Positions 7,704-25,278 of a stretch of DNA of 35,513 bases are shown in pieces. The stretch comes from Gammaproteobacteria bacterium. Its GTDB lineage: Bacteria; Pseudomonadota; Gammaproteobacteria; Arenicellales; Poriferihabitantaceae. The notes beneath the pieces are model-generated. The model was not told where the DNA came from. It searched no databases and worked only from the letters and a program-made list of their open reading frames with translations. Where the stretch lies: assembly GCA_012103395.1 (NCBI GenBank), contig WLWV01000007.1, positions 1-35,513 on the forward strand. Reading direction: 5' to 3'. Position 1 is the stretch's first letter. Every line of letters starts with the position of its first letter. A program made the position numbers and the translations under genes.

Positions 7704-7764
7704 GGGGTTTTATTTGGCTTAAGAGGGTAATTTGTTAGAGTTTGGAATACTCACTTTTAGAAAT

Positions 7765-7873
7765 CAATTGAGGACACCCACCCAAAAGCAATTGAGGACA
7801 CCCAAAGATTACCCAAAGATTAGGAACGGGTTTGTTACACCAACGGAAAACGATGGGCGGGTGTCCTTAATTC
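7765..7873. repeat. REP/MITE-like palindromic element, copy B, with internal duplications
   Basis: The left arm CAATTGAGGACACCC occurs twice (7765-7779 and 7789-7803). The core follows with a doubled CCCAAAGATTA, and then the right arm GGGTGTCCTTAATTC ending at 7873, preceded by an extra GC. Removing these small duplications gives copy A almost base for base. The element lies exactly between the PEP-mutase promoter side and the start of the pentapeptide/WD40 remnant. Confidence 0.8.
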
Positions 7874-7874
7874 A

Positions 7875-8946
7875 TTGGTGGAAGGTAGGCAAAGACGAGG
7901 AGGGAATAAAGAAGGTCGGTACGGTCAATGGGAGATTCCCGTTCCCAGTAAGGAAACATTGGATTTTCTCAGAGAGCTTGTTAACCAGAGAGAGGCCGAA
8001 CGTTGCGTGGAATCCATGGCAGAAATGCGTAAGACCTATCGAGTCCAGCGAAGCGAATTATTATTGGCGTATTTGCTGCACGTTAACGAAAAAGGCGAGG
8101 AGCCGGGTGTTTTTTCGGCGTTTGATCTGTCGGGTGCAAGTGTAAAAGGGCTAAAGGCCGTTGGAACGGACGAGGGAAAAGTGGATTGGCGAAATGGGCG
8201 TTTTGAGGGAGCGAATCTAACAGGCAGCGACTTTCGGGGGATCGATTTCAGTGGCAGTTGTTTTGACAATGCCATATTGGATAATTGCGTATTCGATCAC
8301 TGCGTGATCGACTTGGTGGAGGGGAAGTCTGTTTCCTTAGTCGGTACGATCTTTCACGATTGCGACGCAAGGTCTGCGTATTTTTCACAGCCTGCAGTTT
8401 ATCGCTGTGAATGGTTGAGGTCGGGCGAGAAAGACAGACGCTTTAAAGACAGCGGCTTTAATGGTTCGGGGCGAAAAATAGGTAGAGAGATTGGTGCGGG
8501 AAAAAAATCGAACCCCATCCCCCCCCCCCCGCCCTCCCTTCAGCTTTTCTGATACTCGGGGACAAGCCGACAGTAATACTGTTGGTGCGCCGGATTTGTT
8601 CGTCAGTTCTTCGGAGTTAGCTTTGGACGCCGCGACAAAAAGGCAATTTGTGGGGCATAGTAGTGCTGTCTGGTCGGTCTGCTACAGCCCCGATGGAAAA
8701 TTGATCGCTTCCGCAAGTTCCGATCAATCCATTCGAGTCTGGTCGAAGAGCGGATTGGAGTACGAGACTCAATTTCAGATGGTGTTGTTACCGAATTCGA
8801 ATTGGGTTGTTTGGTCTAGGCCGGATCAACCAAGCCGTGATTGGGAACATCGTAGTGATGATGCTTGGCGTTGGTTGGGGTGGCTGGCGCCGTTACCGGA
8901 TGGTTCTGGTGTGACACGGTATCCGATGAGTTACTTTATTGAGTAG
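7875..8946 (+). pseudogene. Pentapeptide-repeat/WD40 protein remnant, frameshifted at a C12 tract
   Basis: Two ORFs make one broken gene. The first (7875-8552, TTG start directly at the edge of repeat B) has a helical part (LDFLRELVNQREAERCVES) and then pentapeptide repeats (ANLTGSDFRGIDFSGSCFDN, then AILDNCVFDHCVI). The second (from 8491, another frame) has one complete WD40 repeat (FVGHSSAVWSVCYSPDGKLI, then SIRVW). It ends AWRWLGWLAPLPDGSGVTRYP, an ending I associate with large NACHT/STAND-WD40 proteins. The frames meet at a 12-base C run; loss of one C or gain of two would fuse them. A full family member would carry an NTPase domain upstream and several WD repeats, so most of the gene is missing. 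The parent function, perhaps signalling or defence of STAND type, is inference. Confidence 0.72.
8519..8530. repeat. C12 homopolymer tract
   Basis: Twelve consecutive C bases, preceded 11 bases earlier by A7, lie exactly where the pentapeptide frame and the WD40 frame overlap. Such tracts slip during replication and are also a classic site of sequencing error. Confidence 0.95.
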
Positions 8947-11146: not shown

Positions 11147-11200
11147 GTTGAGATTGTGGGGCGACAATAACCGGGATTAAGTCGGAACTAGGTGCCAATT

Positions 11201-12187
11201 ATGAGTCATTCCCAAGTCAAGCACATCGAGAAGGAAGACATTCCGGTGATTGATATCGCTGTTTTGTTCGATGATGAACCGGATTACGAAAGGGTGGGGA
11301 ATGAGCTGCGTAGGGCGGCGGAGTCAGTGGGGTTCTTTTATGTCAAAAACCATTGTATTTCTTCCGAGCTGATGGCCCAGGTTGCTGGAATTTCTAGGGG
11401 CTTTTTCCATCGAGGGAGAGATGAGAAGTCGCAAGTATTAGCCCGTGATACACACCGGGGTTTATTGGGCTTTGGCGGCGCGAAGATGACGGGACATCAT
11501 CAGCCTGATCTGAAGGAGAGTTATATTTGGGGCGCGGATTTAGCCGCCGATAATTTGGAGTTTTTGAGTGGGAACAAGATGTTCGCTCCCAATATTTGGC
11601 CAGGGTTTATGCCCGAGATGCGCGCCGCACTTAACCAGTACATGGCTGGGGCGAATCATTGCGGTCAGCAGCTATTAAAGGCATTTGCATCGAGTCTGGG
11701 TATTGAACACGATTATTTTGTTCGCACCTTTGATGAGCCCATTTCCCGTGGAACGCTGATTCACTATCCGCCGCTGGAGAGCGACCAAGATGTCTCTGGA
11801 AATCAGGTCGATCGATATGGCGTGTCTCCGCACACGGATTTTGGGACACTCACTTTACTGGCTCAGGACGACACCGGCGGTTTGAGGGTGAAAGATCGAC
11901 AGGGAAACTGGTTAACGGCTCACCCTATTGAAAACACGCTGGTGGTGAATGTCGGGGATTTACTGGCTCGTTGGACCAACGACCGATTTCAGTCTACGGT
12001 TCACGCGGTGGTCAATAATTCGGGCCGGGAGCGATATTCTATCGTGGTAGCGGTGGATCCAAATTGGGAAACGGAGGTGACGCCGGTGGTGTTGGGTGAT
12101 GAAAAAGCGAACTATGGGACGGTGCGTTGCGGTGAATATATCCAGCGACGATTTGATCATTCGTTTAATTATGAGAAACGGGAGTGA
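11201..12187 (+). CDS. 2-oxoglutarate/Fe(II)-dependent oxygenase, isopenicillin-N-synthase-like
   Basis: A cytoplasmic non-haem iron oxygenase of 328 residues with the usual DIOX_N + 2OG-FeII domains. The N-terminal half shows IPVIDIAVLF, ESVGFFYVKNH and the substrate-recognition linker. The Fe(II) triad is visible as HTDFG (H and D) and STVHAV (distal H), and RYSIV supplies the Arg-x-Ser that binds the 2-oxoglutarate carboxylate. I chose the ATG at 11201, with AGGTG a few bases upstream, over the GTG at 11192. Enzymes of this subfamily hydroxylate or oxidise small molecules. Neighbouring transporter and amidohydrolase genes suggest catabolism of a nitrogen compound, but the substrate is unknown. 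Confidence 0.9.
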   Translation: MSHSQVKHIEKEDIPVIDIAVLFDDEPDYERVGNELRRAAESVGFFYVKNHCISSELMAQVAGISRGFFHRGRDEKSQVLARDTHRGLLGFGGAKMTGHHQPDLKESYIWGADLAADNLEFLSGNKMFAPNIWPGFMPEMRAALNQYMAGANHCGQQLLKAFASSLGIEHDYFVRTFDEPISRGTLIHYPPLESDQDVSGNQVDRYGVSPHTDFGTLTLLAQDDTGGLRVKDRQGNWLTAHPIENTLVVNVGDLLARWTNDRFQSTVHAVVNNSGRERYSIVVAVDPNWETEVTPVVLGDEKANYGTVRCGEYIQRRFDHSFNYEKRE

Positions 12188-19885: not shown

Positions 19886-20827
19886 ATGACAACTCTATCT
19901 GACTCTTCGCTAATCACCGTTCGCGATCTTTGCAAGGTTTATGAAAATGGCTTTGTTGCGCTTGATAATGTCAATTTAGACATTCAGCGTGGAGAAATTC
20001 TGGCGTTGCTGGGGCCAAATGGTGCGGGAAAAACGACACTAATTAGCATTATTTGCGGTATTGTGAACCCGGGAACGGGTTCCGTGACGGTGGATGGTTA
20101 TGACATTATCAAACATTACCGAGCCACTCGGTCCTTGATTGGATTAGTGCCTCAAGAATTAGCCACTGATGCATTTGAGACGGTACATCAAACGGTTTCT
20201 TTTAGCCGAGGGTTGTTTGGGAAGCCAGCTAATCCAGATTTTGTCGATGGCATTTTGAAGTCGCTGTCACTATGGGACAAAAAGAGTAATATTATTAAAG
20301 AGCTGTCTGGGGGAATGAAACGTCGTGTGATGATTGCCAAGGCGTTGTCCCATGAACCGCGAATTCTGTTTCTGGATGAACCCAGTGCAGGGGTTGACGT
20401 GGAGTTGCGTAAGGACATGTGGCAAGTTATTCGCGAGCTGCGGGACACAGGTGTGACCATTATTCTGACCACGCACTACATTGAGGAGGCGGAAGAAATA
20501 GCCGACCGTGTCGGGGTCATCAATAATGGAAAAATCATGTTAGTGGAGAAGAAGGCGGAGTTGATGGATAAGCTTGGTAAAAAACAACTTATTCTGGATT
20601 TACATCAGACGCTATCTTCTTTACCAAAGGAGCTGGAGATTTATGGGTTGGCGCTATCTGATGATGGTAAGCAGCTGATCTATACTTATGACACAAAGGG
20701 CGAAAGAACCGGCATTACTGCGTTATTGAGTGATCTTAATGTGGCGGGAATCAAGTTTAGAGATCTGAAAACGGAGCAGAGTTCATTGGAAGATATTTTC
20801 GTTAATTTGGTGCATGAAAAATCATGA
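19886..20827 (+). CDS. ABC-2-type exporter ATPase (YadG-like)
   Basis: A 313-residue ATPase of the CcmA/NatA/YadG group. It has Walker A (GPNGAGKTT) near residue 49, [14 protein letters not shown] as Q-loop, the signature LSGGMKRR, Walker B ([20 protein letters not shown]) and the H-loop [11 protein letters not shown]-terminal domain of about 90 residues follows ([16 protein letters not shown] and on), ending [11 protein letters not shown] as in YadG. Its TGA overlaps the ATG of the permease by 4 bases. A TATACT at 19874-19879 with TTGGAC 19 bases upstream would put transcription start close to the ATG, and no SD is present, so a leaderless transcript is possible. Confidence 0.92.
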
Positions 20828-21586
20828 ATATCTATGCCGTAAAAGCGATTTATCAATTCGAAATGTCCAGAAGCTGGCGCACAGTTTTTCAGAGTATTAT
20901 TTCGCCGGTGATGTCAACGGTGCTTTATTTCGTGGTGTTTGGGTCTGCCATTGGATCACGAATAAGTGAGATAGACGGGATTAGCTATGGCTCATTTATA
21001 GTGCCGGGGCTAATTATGCTGTCGTTGTTGACACAAAGCGCGACCAATGCTTCTTTCGGTATTTTCTTCCCCAGATTTACGGGCACCATTTATGAAGTAT
21101 TGTCGGCGCCGGTTTCTTATTTCGAGGTGGTATTGGGTTATGTCGGAGCGGCGGCTACCAAGTCGATTATTATCGGATTGATTATTCTGGCTACCGCCGG
21201 TTTTTTTGTCGATTTAGAAATTGCACACCCGATCTGGATGTTTGCCTTTTTATTGCTGACGGCGATCACCTTTAGTCTTTTCGGTTTTATCGTTGGTATA
21301 TGGGCGGATAATTTTGAAAAAATGCAGATTATTCCACATATTGGTCATTACTCCTTTGGTTTTTCTCGGTGGTAGTTTTTATTCAATCAGCATGTTGCCC
21401 AGTTTCTGGCAAACCGTCACGTTGTTTAACCCAGCTCTTTATTTGGTGAGCGGTTTTCGCTGGAGCTTTTACGAGACATCTGACGTTAGTATGGAAGCCA
21501 GCTTGGCGATGGTATTGGTGTTCTTGTTTTTGTGTATCGCGATTGTTTGCTGGATATTCAAGACTGGCTACCGTATTAAGAATTAA
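20824..21586 (+). pseudogene. ABC-2-type transporter permease (YadH-like), frameshifted
   Basis: Two ORFs form one roughly 254-residue permease. The first reads [20 protein letters not shown], then [19 protein letters not shown], up to [10 protein letters not shown]; past that point its frame gives only a short nonsense tail. The +1-shifted frame continues with [20 protein letters not shown], then FNPALYLVSGFRWSFY, the expected YadH C-terminus. Removing one base near 21340 (CATATTGG) joins them perfectly as IIPHLVITPL. The rest is intact, so this is either a recent inactivating indel or a sequencing error. It partners the ATPase upstream, and the giant lipoprotein gene starts 30 bp downstream. 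Confidence 0.85.
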
Positions 21587-21615
21587 CCAAGGCTACTTTT
21601 TCCGGAGAAAAATAA

Positions 21616-24600
21616 ATGAGGTTAGGGGGGAAAGTGGTTTCGTTCGGGATGAGACAATATGGAGTGCTGTCACTACTGATCCCTCTTTTATCGGCATGTA
21701 CGACCGCCGACTTATCCTTAAGACAAAACCTTCCAGACAGGGATGTCGAGTTTACCTTCAAATACTTCAGTGGATTTCGGGTGGAGTCTCTGGATGCAGA
21801 ACGAAAATCTAGGTTAAATCGTTATGAGCAATGGTTAAATGCCCCTGAAACCTTTGAGCAACGCTCGCAAGGAGCGATAGACAGTCGACAAACGGTGGTT
21901 GCATCGGCAGCAGCCAATTTGCAACGGGACAAAAGTGTATTGGAAAAGTATCAGGTTTCACAGAATCTCGATACGAATCGTATTCAGCGGCAGGATGATT
22001 TCCAACAGGCGCTTTCGAAATTTGAATCCCAGCGATTAGGCCAAACTCAGCGTATCAATGAATCGACTACCCAGCTGATTGAGCAGGGCAACGATCTTAA
22101 GCTAGCTGAAATAAAGTCGGCGTTTAGTGAATTGAATGCGTTACGCGACCGTCAGGGCCGACTAGGTCTGACGATATCAGATTTGACTTCAAAGATTTCA
22201 AGACTGGAAGCGGGGCAGCACAATCTAACCAGCGATCAAGCCGCACTCGATTTGCAAGATGCCCAAACCGCGTTAGATTCCGCGGAAGCAGCGCTTGACG
22301 CCGTCAGCCAACGACGCGGGGAAACCATTGCGCAAGTCGAAGGGCTTTTTGGTAATGCGGTGTCACCGAATGGGAATTTTGTGACATCACTGCCAGCGCC
22401 GGTGATTACCGAAGTGACTTTGGGTGATGCTGATGGATCCAGTGCTGCTAATACTATTAGTTTGTCTACTAATGTTCCCCAAGCGCAAAACCCACAGGTT
22501 GACCGACAGATTAGTGAATTAGCTGCTGAGCTTGGATCTATCAGTGCTGGATTGGACAAATTACTCAATGGTGAAGTGGATGCCTTAAAAGGCTTGGAGA
22601 AAATAGGCAGCAATGATATCGATTCGACTCCTTTGGAGCGAATTCGAAACAAGGAAGCCACACTGGAATATTTGTTGGAACAAATGCGGGATAACCAAAT
22701 AACCAGTAAGGCAATGTATGGGGGGTATGTACAGCGTGCTTTGCCATTTGAAATTGGGTTTCAACCGGGTGCGGAAACAGAAAGTGGCGTTTCAGCAAGG
22801 ATCATGTTGTCAGTTTTCGAAGACGACGTTGAGCACGTTTCAAAGAAAATCGAATCCATACTGGTAGACCATATTCAACGGCGATACGAAACGAATCGCG
22901 TTTACCTAGGGCTGATTAGTGAAAACCAGTATGGTTTAGTCGACGAGGACAATCAGTTCAACTTATATGATCGTCTAATGGTTTGCGGGGAGTTGGGTCG
23001 CGAAGGTGATTGTGCGAAATATGCACTTGAATTTAGTCGGAAGGCTCAATCGGCGAATAGATCGTTAGGGGTGGATAATGAAAACACCGATTTGTATCGA
23101 GCTTATGAGTTGGCGATTCAGTACCTCGTGGATATAAACAACCAAGACAACGACGATTGTCTACAAAGTCAAAACCAAGGGCTTGGTGGTGAACGATCAC
23201 GGCGTGATCCTTACCGCATTATCGTGGACCAAGAAACCTTAATGAGTATCTGTCGCATTCGAACAGAGGGGCTCATTGGTTCGGGTATGGGTGAAGCTGG
23301 TTCGAAAAGTAGTGCTAGCCGGGGCCGCTTCACTTACAACACACCATTTTCGAAATGGGGGGATTTGGGGTTAGCATTGCACAAACTGCAGGATGTCTAT
23401 GGTCCACAATTTGAAAATGCCAACACTGCCGGTAATGCAACACTGATTTTCGAGTTTATCGAATCATTGACCGCGGCCCTGTATACCGATGCGCGGATAA
23501 ATGAGTCCAGTGTTTTTGGCAAACTTAAAGGCCAGGAGAGAAAATCTAATCAAGAGCGAGGTGTTGGATCGAACATCACACTCACTGCATTAACGACGAA
23601 TGGAAGGATGGGTTTTGATACCCGAATTAACAAACCTGTTCTGGTCGACAAACTGTCCGACTATATACGGTTTTTGATTAGCCCAAAGATTATCGATAAT
23701 TCAGCCAGAGAGCGAGTGATCGAGATCGCAGATACAGAGGCGGTATCGAGACTATTGAATGCGGCGGTGACGGCAAATGATGTGTCTGCAGCGACGGGCG
23801 TTACGGTGGGAGCGGAAATTGTGAATGCGTTGGCTCGTTCTACTGCGTTTAAATCCCGTGTGCCCTATGCCACACCTTTTACAGGTGTTGTTAATCAGGA
23901 GGCACCATCGGGATCATCATCCAGACAGGCTCCCTATTTTGGTTGGACGTTTTACCAAGTGCCTATTGGTATTGCCAAGAATGGCAAACTTTCTTACGAG
24001 TTTAAAACCATCCCCGCTCAAACAACCGTGGTGGTTCACGTTCCTCAATGGCTAAGAAGAATTAAAGCAATTTATCAGTATCGGTCTGACAAGGACTGGA
24101 TTGACCATGGCGTTGAGGCGATCGAATTGACTTCTCATGGCGCGAGTTTCGAGGAGTTCAGACAGTTTGTTGAGTATGAAATATTCGATGCTTACCCTGA
24201 CAGTGGCAGCATAAGTCCAGTTGTGGCTCTAAACGGTGCTGCTGATGGAAATGCGGCATCTGCAAGGGGGTGTAATAACCAAGAGCCATACATTCATGTG
24301 AGTCGGCATTCTGAAAGCTTCGCGCTTTGTGGTGAGCGTCTTTATGGGGTTCGAAATCTGATCGTGGGTGGAGTGATGCTTGAGGAGGAGGAATTAACCC
24401 GGGTGTCGGATAAGGTGATGCTAGTGAAAACCCGGGGACTGGTGGATAAGCCCTGCGCCGCGCCCAAGATTAGGCAAGCAGACAAGGATAATGTACAAGC
24501 GATGTGCCCTATCGAACTTGTCCATGAATACGGCGTTGTTGCAACACCAATGAACTTCGCTTGGATCGATGATAAGGTTGATTTCATTGATCATGGTTCA

Positions 24601-25278
24601 TCGCGCGGAAGTTCTGGTCGGAATAGTCCCGCGAATGGGAGAATTACCATGGAAACCATTGCGGGACTGGATGACATTTACCGAATGGTGACCCCTTATG
24701 TGTTTGATAAAGACAATCCAATTCGCAGCGTGTTTGTTGATAAGCGGTATCTGATTGATCTAACCAAAAGAAGTAGGATTATCTCGGATAAAAGAATTGA
24801 ACTGGACATTAGAAAATCTCATCTAGTTGATTTTTGTGGTCAGGACACCCAAAGAGTAGATTGTGTCATCACGGTATACAAAACTGAGACCAGAGATCCG
24901 TCAGACGTACAGATCGGCTTGATCGATATGGCAGATTATGGCTGGAAACCATACAGCCCACCGGAGCCCGGATTAATCAGGAATACGCTGACAAAAGATA
25001 ATGCAGAAAAGAGATATATCTTAAGAATTCAAAACTATCGTGAGAATCGGTTTTTCCCTCTTCGTTATGTGAAAATTGGTAATCATCGTATGCAGAACCT
25101 CGACACCTTGACTCTTCGTTCTTCAGGTGGTGATATCGAGCTGAGTATTGCAGAAAATGCTGTGATTGATCAGTGCGGTGGACAATTAGCGAGTTGCCAA
25201 TTGGACGTTACGTTGGTTGAGAAATTTATCGATAAAGCGGTTTCTATTGGGAAGGTGGTCGTTCCGTTTGATGGATGA
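21616..25278 (+). CDS. Giant secreted lipoprotein of unknown function
   Basis: A 1220-residue protein. The signal sequence ends in a lipobox (GVLSLLIPLLSAC), giving lipidation at Cys28; GGAG nine bases upstream supports the ATG at 21616. Residues about 85-240 are rich in Q, E, R and heptad-like Leu (SELNALRDRQGRLGLTISDL and similar) and should form a long coiled coil. The middle part is mixed alpha/beta without a known motif. The C-terminal 300 residues contain three related segments with a Cys pair: CAAP...MCPIELV (about 947), CGQDTQRVDCVITVYKT (about 1074) and CGGQLASCQLDVTLVE (about 1187). These suggest disulfide-bonded beta modules outside the cytoplasm. It lies 30 bp after an ABC-2 exporter, probably in one operon. 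I recognise no family. Confidence 0.8.
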   Translation: MRLGGKVVSFGMRQYGVLSLLIPLLSACTTADLSLRQNLPDRDVEFTFKYFSGFRVESLDAERKSRLNRYEQWLNAPETFEQRSQGAIDSRQTVVASAAANLQRDKSVLEKYQVSQNLDTNRIQRQDDFQQALSKFESQRLGQTQRINESTTQLIEQGNDLKLAEIKSAFSELNALRDRQGRLGLTISDLTSKISRLEAGQHNLTSDQAALDLQDAQTALDSAEAALDAVSQRRGETIAQVEGLFGNAVSPNGNFVTSLPAPVITEVTLGDADGSSAANTISLSTNVPQAQNPQVDRQISELAAELGSISAGLDKLLNGEVDALKGLEKIGSNDIDSTPLERIRNKEATLEYLLEQMRDNQITSKAMYGGYVQRALPFEIGFQPGAETESGVSARIMLSVFEDDVEHVSKKIESILVDHIQRRYETNRVYLGLISENQYGLVDEDNQFNLYDRLMVCGELGREGDCAKYALEFSRKAQSANRSLGVDNENTDLYRAYELAIQYLVDINNQDNDDCLQSQNQGLGGERSRRDPYRIIVDQETLMSICRIRTEGLIGSGMGEAGSKSSASRGRFTYNTPFSKWGDLGLALHKLQDVYGPQFENANTAGNATLIFEFIESLTAALYTDARINESSVFGKLKGQERKSNQERGVGSNITLTALTTNGRMGFDTRINKPVLVDKLSDYIRFLISPKIIDNSARERVIEIADTEAVSRLLNAAVTANDVSAATGVTVGAEIVNALARSTAFKSRVPYATPFTGVVNQEAPSGSSSRQAPYFGWTFYQVPIGIAKNGKLSYEFKTIPAQTTVVVHVPQWLRRIKAIYQYRSDKDWIDHGVEAIELTSHGASFEEFRQFVEYEIFDAYPDSGSISPVVALNGAADGNAASARGCNNQEPYIHVSRHSESFALCGERLYGVRNLIVGGVMLEEEELTRVSDKVMLVKTRGLVDKPCAAPKIRQADKDNVQAMCPIELVHEYGVVATPMNFAWIDDKVDFIDHGSSRGSSGRNSPANGRITMETIAGLDDIYRMVTPYVFDKDNPIRSVFVDKRYLIDLTKRSRIISDKRIELDIRKSHLVDFCGQDTQRVDCVITVYKTETRDPSDVQIGLIDMADYGWKPYSPPEPGLIRNTLTKDNAEKRYILRIQNYRENRFFPLRYVKIGNHRMQNLDTLTLRSSGGDIELSIAENAVIDQCGGQLASCQLDVTLVEKFIDKAVSIGKVVVPFDG

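Follow-up and report, generated by a model that had tools for sequence, protein, structure and literature searches.

A large predicted envelope lipoprotein outside the described families in two species of an uncultured gammaproteobacterial genus

What does a 3.7-kb gene directly downstream of genes for an ABC ATPase and an ABC-2 permease encode, and does its product belong with that transporter? The gene lies in a window of 35,513 nucleotides (the whole stretch of DNA analysed, contig WLWV01000007.1), where an uninterrupted forward-strand frame at 21616–25278 specifies a lipoprotein of 1220 residues, here called P0001. The features of the gene and its neighbours are collected in Table 1. A sequence-only reading of this DNA had seen an unrecognised lipoprotein with a long coiled coil and three C-terminal Cys-pair modules, which together with the adjacent transporter might form an export unit.

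Table 1. Positions of P0001, its parts and the neighbouring transporter genes in the window.
Feature	Position	Strand	Basis
YadG-type ABC ATPase (neighbour)	19886..20827	+	Pfam ABC_tran; NCBIfam
YadH-type ABC-2 permease (neighbour), 1-nt frameshift near 21335, continues in another frame to 21586	20824..21375	+	Pfam/NCBIfam; frame reading
Putative Shine-Dalgarno GGAG, 8 nt before ATG	21604..21607	+	sequence
Gene for P0001, 1220-aa lipoprotein	21616..25278	+	open frame; 69% identical ortholog; purifying selection
Lipoprotein signal peptide and lipobox, residues 1–28 (LLSA/C)	21616..21699	+	sequence, alignment
Proline-free, probably helical, coiled-coil-like region, residues 78–250	21847..22365	+	heptad signal weak; prolines absent in ortholog too
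Central region, residues 326–745, Cys pairs 457/466 and 515/546	22591..23850	+	alpha-helical in low-confidence model, mean pLDDT 36
FGW segment, residues 690–830	23683..24105	+	possible homology to Vibrio BFG51036.1 residues 495–615; HMM tests not significant
Segment with Cys pairs 886/905 and 947/964, residues 875–990	24238..24585	+	weak collinear match to Vibrio BFG51036.1 660–720
C-terminal module 1, residues 1021–1106, Cys 1074/1083	24676..24933	+	repeat of module 2
C-terminal module 2, residues 1133–1217, Cys 1187/1194	25012..25266	+	repeat of module 1; Ig/FnIII-like beta sandwich in model

The open frame is a real gene, coding beyond doubt and under strong purifying selection. A second genome of the same genus (G001) encodes an ortholog of 1261 residues that is 69% identical over residues 16–1219. 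P0001 is coding because the two align across 1211 codons with indels that are all in-frame, and because pN is 0.19 against a pS of 0.78, at which synonymous sites are saturated. Calculated for each tenth of the protein, pN was low throughout (0.13–0.33), and no part of the protein has a pN/pS that comes near 1. The selection that the sequence-only reading had suggested from an uninterrupted frame is supported by this comparison. Among the genes compared in the surrounding block, P0001 had the highest dN, at 0.22, the others lying between 0.05 and 0.16 (SBP 0.05, YadH ∼0.06, YadG 0.09, and MFS, ChaC and creatininase ∼0.16). Surface proteins often show such a rank, and it would be compatible with P0001 being one.

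At the N-terminus, the lipobox noted earlier is present at Cys28, where P0001 has LSAC, matching the pattern [LVI][ASTVI][GAS]C expected of signal peptidase II substrates, and the ortholog has the equally lipobox-like LGAC. The residue at position +2 after this cysteine is Thr in P0001 and Ala in the ortholog, and is not Asp. All 13 cysteines of P0001 are kept in the ortholog, comprising Cys28 and six pairs (457/466, 515/546, 886/905, 947/964, 1074/1083 and 1187/1194).

Downstream of the signal peptide, residues 78–250 form a run of 173 residues devoid of proline, and the corresponding part of the ortholog lacks proline as well; this region is probably helical. What stands of the long coiled coil proposed earlier is this probable helix, with a heptad periodicity that is just marginal (p 0.03 overall), reaching p 0.02–0.05 in residues 140–245 and being absent from windows within residues 78–180. 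Most of P0001 gave no confident structure model (mean pLDDT 39 and 36).

The C-terminal end is better defined. Residues 1021–1106 and 1133–1217 are tandem repeats, with a score of 51 that was matched by none of 500 shuffles and with 13 columns invariant among four copies. Two of the three Cys-pair modules claimed earlier are thereby proven to be repeats. The third is not detectably related: the Cys-pair region at residues 905–985 had no repeat-level score, and a profile of the two modules found exactly two copies in each ortholog. The pairs number six in total rather than three. The last ∼100 residues were modelled as a beta sandwich with moderate confidence (block pLDDT 48–82). Searching this fold against the PDB returned LZ-8 and FIP proteins as the best matches (FnIII/Ig-like, E 0.007–0.02), as well as an FNIII domain at E 0.24; the match covers these ∼100 residues only, with no E below 0.001 and a TM-score of up to 0.49 by target length. 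The structures concerned (PDB IDs: 3f3h, LZ-8; 7wdl, FIP-nha; 2csp, FNIII domain) share 8–10% identity with the P0001 C-terminus at an E no better than 0.007, and LZ-8 and FIP, unlike P0001, are fungal, free single-domain proteins. Sequence profiles for TIG, fn3 and Ig gave no Pfam match in P0001.

P0001 is thus far known from two species of one genus and, as a large protein with a predicted lipid anchor in the envelope, belongs to none of the families described. Searches of Pfam, NCBIfam, PHROGs, PADLOC and PDB sequences yielded no accepted match, which bears out its earlier description as unrecognised. It is carried by 2 of the 109 genomes of the order, both from one uncultured genus, and by none of the other genomes of the family (24 in the family). 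No accepted match was found in 369 genomes of the class and 399 of the phylum (partly overlapping draws), and no homologs were found in plasmids, phages or viral contigs. A scan of one genome per species across 84,980 species, using exact peptide patterns that detect close relatives only, matched a single metagenome-assembled genome, MH1_Bin6 (JAALKB010000092.1), whose record matches the G001 ortholog. Among the weak hits from class and phylum, the two phylum hits that were opened (L063 and L064) were judged unrelated. Those loose-E hits of the sub-family profiles A4 and A5 that were opened were chance matches, with a histidine kinase, Lon, an acyl-CoA ligase, an OYE-type enzyme and the antisense strand of a ThDP enzyme as examples. 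A viral fold search gave nothing usable.

The position of the gene raises the possibility that an ABC-2 exporter here has its own partner lipoprotein. Both lie on the same strand, yadH in its original frame would end at 21586, leaving 29 nt to the ATG of P0001, and the gene order is identical in the two species. However, the conserved order spans a whole block of unrelated genes, from ∼13.2 to 25.3 kb, and because both species share this block, the adjacency of yadGH and P0001 is plain synteny of sister species. Close YadH orthologs are present across many genera of the order, where YadGH occurs without P0001. In the 20 other yadGH neighbourhoods of the order that were read, several of them short contig ends, no P0001-type lipoprotein adjoins yadGH and the gene after yadH varies. 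The succession of ATPase, permease and lipoprotein is therefore not conserved, and the YadG/YadH-type transporter is a neighbour only. YadH is also interrupted in both carriers of P0001, by a one-base frameshift in the window (20824–21586) and by an in-frame stop in G001 (L003 10276–11037), at sites that differ; at the 20 loci read elsewhere in the order, yadH reads through for at least 253 residues (at L051 an overlapping frame was listed instead). These breaks may be recent losses or assembly errors, because the portion of YadH past the break keeps a pN of 0.06, the same as the portion before it. The decaying neighbourhood described by the sequence-only reading accordingly has the YadH frameshift and a truncated SBP gene (985–1296) in its favour and the equal conservation of post-break YadH against it, and decay is not established. 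The proposed export unit fails on these comparisons, and we regard it as very improbable; a gene order that sister species have in common does not by itself amount to a functional unit.

A related possibility is that P0001 serves the exporter as a periplasmic adaptor, akin to the HlyD/MacA-like membrane-fusion proteins, as a lipobox and a helical stretch beside an ABC transporter might suggest. We find this hardly credible, given that a Pfam scan of P0001 up to E 1 showed no domain of HlyD, lipoyl or biotin type, and that P0001 is far longer than such adaptors and carries C-terminal repeats of probable Ig-like fold.

We prefer a reading, at a probability of about 60%, in which P0001 is an outer-membrane lipoprotein confined to this lineage, with a helical stalk and with disulfide-bearing, Ig-like C-terminal modules that probably act in binding or structure. 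Its localisation, topology, disulfides and binding role are what we infer from the features above. Judging from the signal sequence, P0001 would leave the cytoplasm through Sec, undergo cleavage and acylation at Cys28 and, with no Asp at +2, reach the outer membrane by way of Lol. The long helical segment would then space a central, alpha-rich, disulfide-bearing body from the C-terminal disulfide-stabilised Ig/FnIII-like modules, and these modules would most likely bind or scaffold a partner in the envelope, at the surface or in a host. P0001 is possibly co-transcribed with yadGH locally, and would not need that transporter. This anatomy would fit a surface-structural or adhesive role; P0001 could also face the periplasm, as surface exposure is not readable from sequence. 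Orphan lipoproteins of large size are commonly overlooked in work on the envelopes of uncultured bacteria, and P0001 offers a defined anatomy for testing.

Compatible with an outer-membrane lipoprotein of this kind is a broader reading, in which P0001 would belong, as a divergent member, to a larger and so far undescribed family of lipoproteins together with BFG51036.1, a hypothetical lipoprotein of 857 residues from the Vibrio sp. MAO6 plasmid AP029601.1 (L120 6392–8965). Such a family would reach well past a single genus. Like P0001, BFG51036.1 has a lipobox and a helical N-terminal half, and then, in matching succession, an FGW segment and a C-terminal beta segment; it differs in being shorter (857 against 1220 residues) and its similarity is below accepted significance. 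It has no accepted Pfam family, and its weak TIG match (E 0.012) speaks for the kinship. The FGW segment of BFG51036.1 was collinear in both orthologs and scored above all 127 equal-length control chunks (BLOSUM62, gap opening 9), and its segment 660–720 was collinear too, with 2–6 controls scoring higher; such collinear scores exceed all or nearly all controls in some scoring schemes only. Segment shuffles gave z 5.6 (0 of 1000) and z 5.1 (1 of 1000), and the single best local match in hhalign was the collinear pair 900–933/672–705. Against this, the hhalign probability was 0.3%, HMM tests placed BFG51036.1 among the controls, and the whole-protein z was 4.2 for P0001 and 1.6 for the ortholog, where controls reach 4.4. 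The middle, N-terminal and TIG segments gave no consistent collinear signal, the segments compared were picked after the sequences had been seen, and BFG51036.1 itself came from motif probes that served as no more than a lead. Distant homology between the two proteins is plausible and unproven, at about even odds, and the same balance applies to membership of P0001 in the wider family and to a family plan running from lipobox through helical region, central domain and FGW domain to C-terminal TIG/Ig-like domains. Slightly more doubtful is a family of large envelope lipoproteins built on a shared helical/FGW core with variable C-terminal Ig/TIG-like tips, these being tandem Cys-pair modules in P0001. 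If the Vibrio link is true, a wider envelope lipoprotein family awaits naming.

The motif probes gave chance hits only in 200 genomes of the phylum, no other plasmid record matched BFG51036.1, and FGWxxGP DNA patterns found no further recognisable member in viral contigs. The neighbours of BFG51036.1 that were read encode an ankyrin-repeat protein, an ERCC4-type protein, an integrase and an MMPL-like protein, with no exporter, unlike the setting of P0001.

Some minor features of the two genomes were also recorded. An 11-residue stretch in the Walker A loop of YadG reads differently in G001 (L003 9338–10279) and in the window. The truncated solute-binding protein gene spans ∼78 of 132 Pfam positions and is followed by its permease gene. 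A pentapeptide-repeat frame at 7875–8552 overlaps two frames on the same strand (7732–8145 and 8491–8946) and is possibly part of a frameshifted gene. Finally, a 2OG-Fe(II) oxygenase-like gene encodes 331 residues in the window (11192–12187) and 135 residues in G001 (L003 1193–1600), where it is apparently broken.
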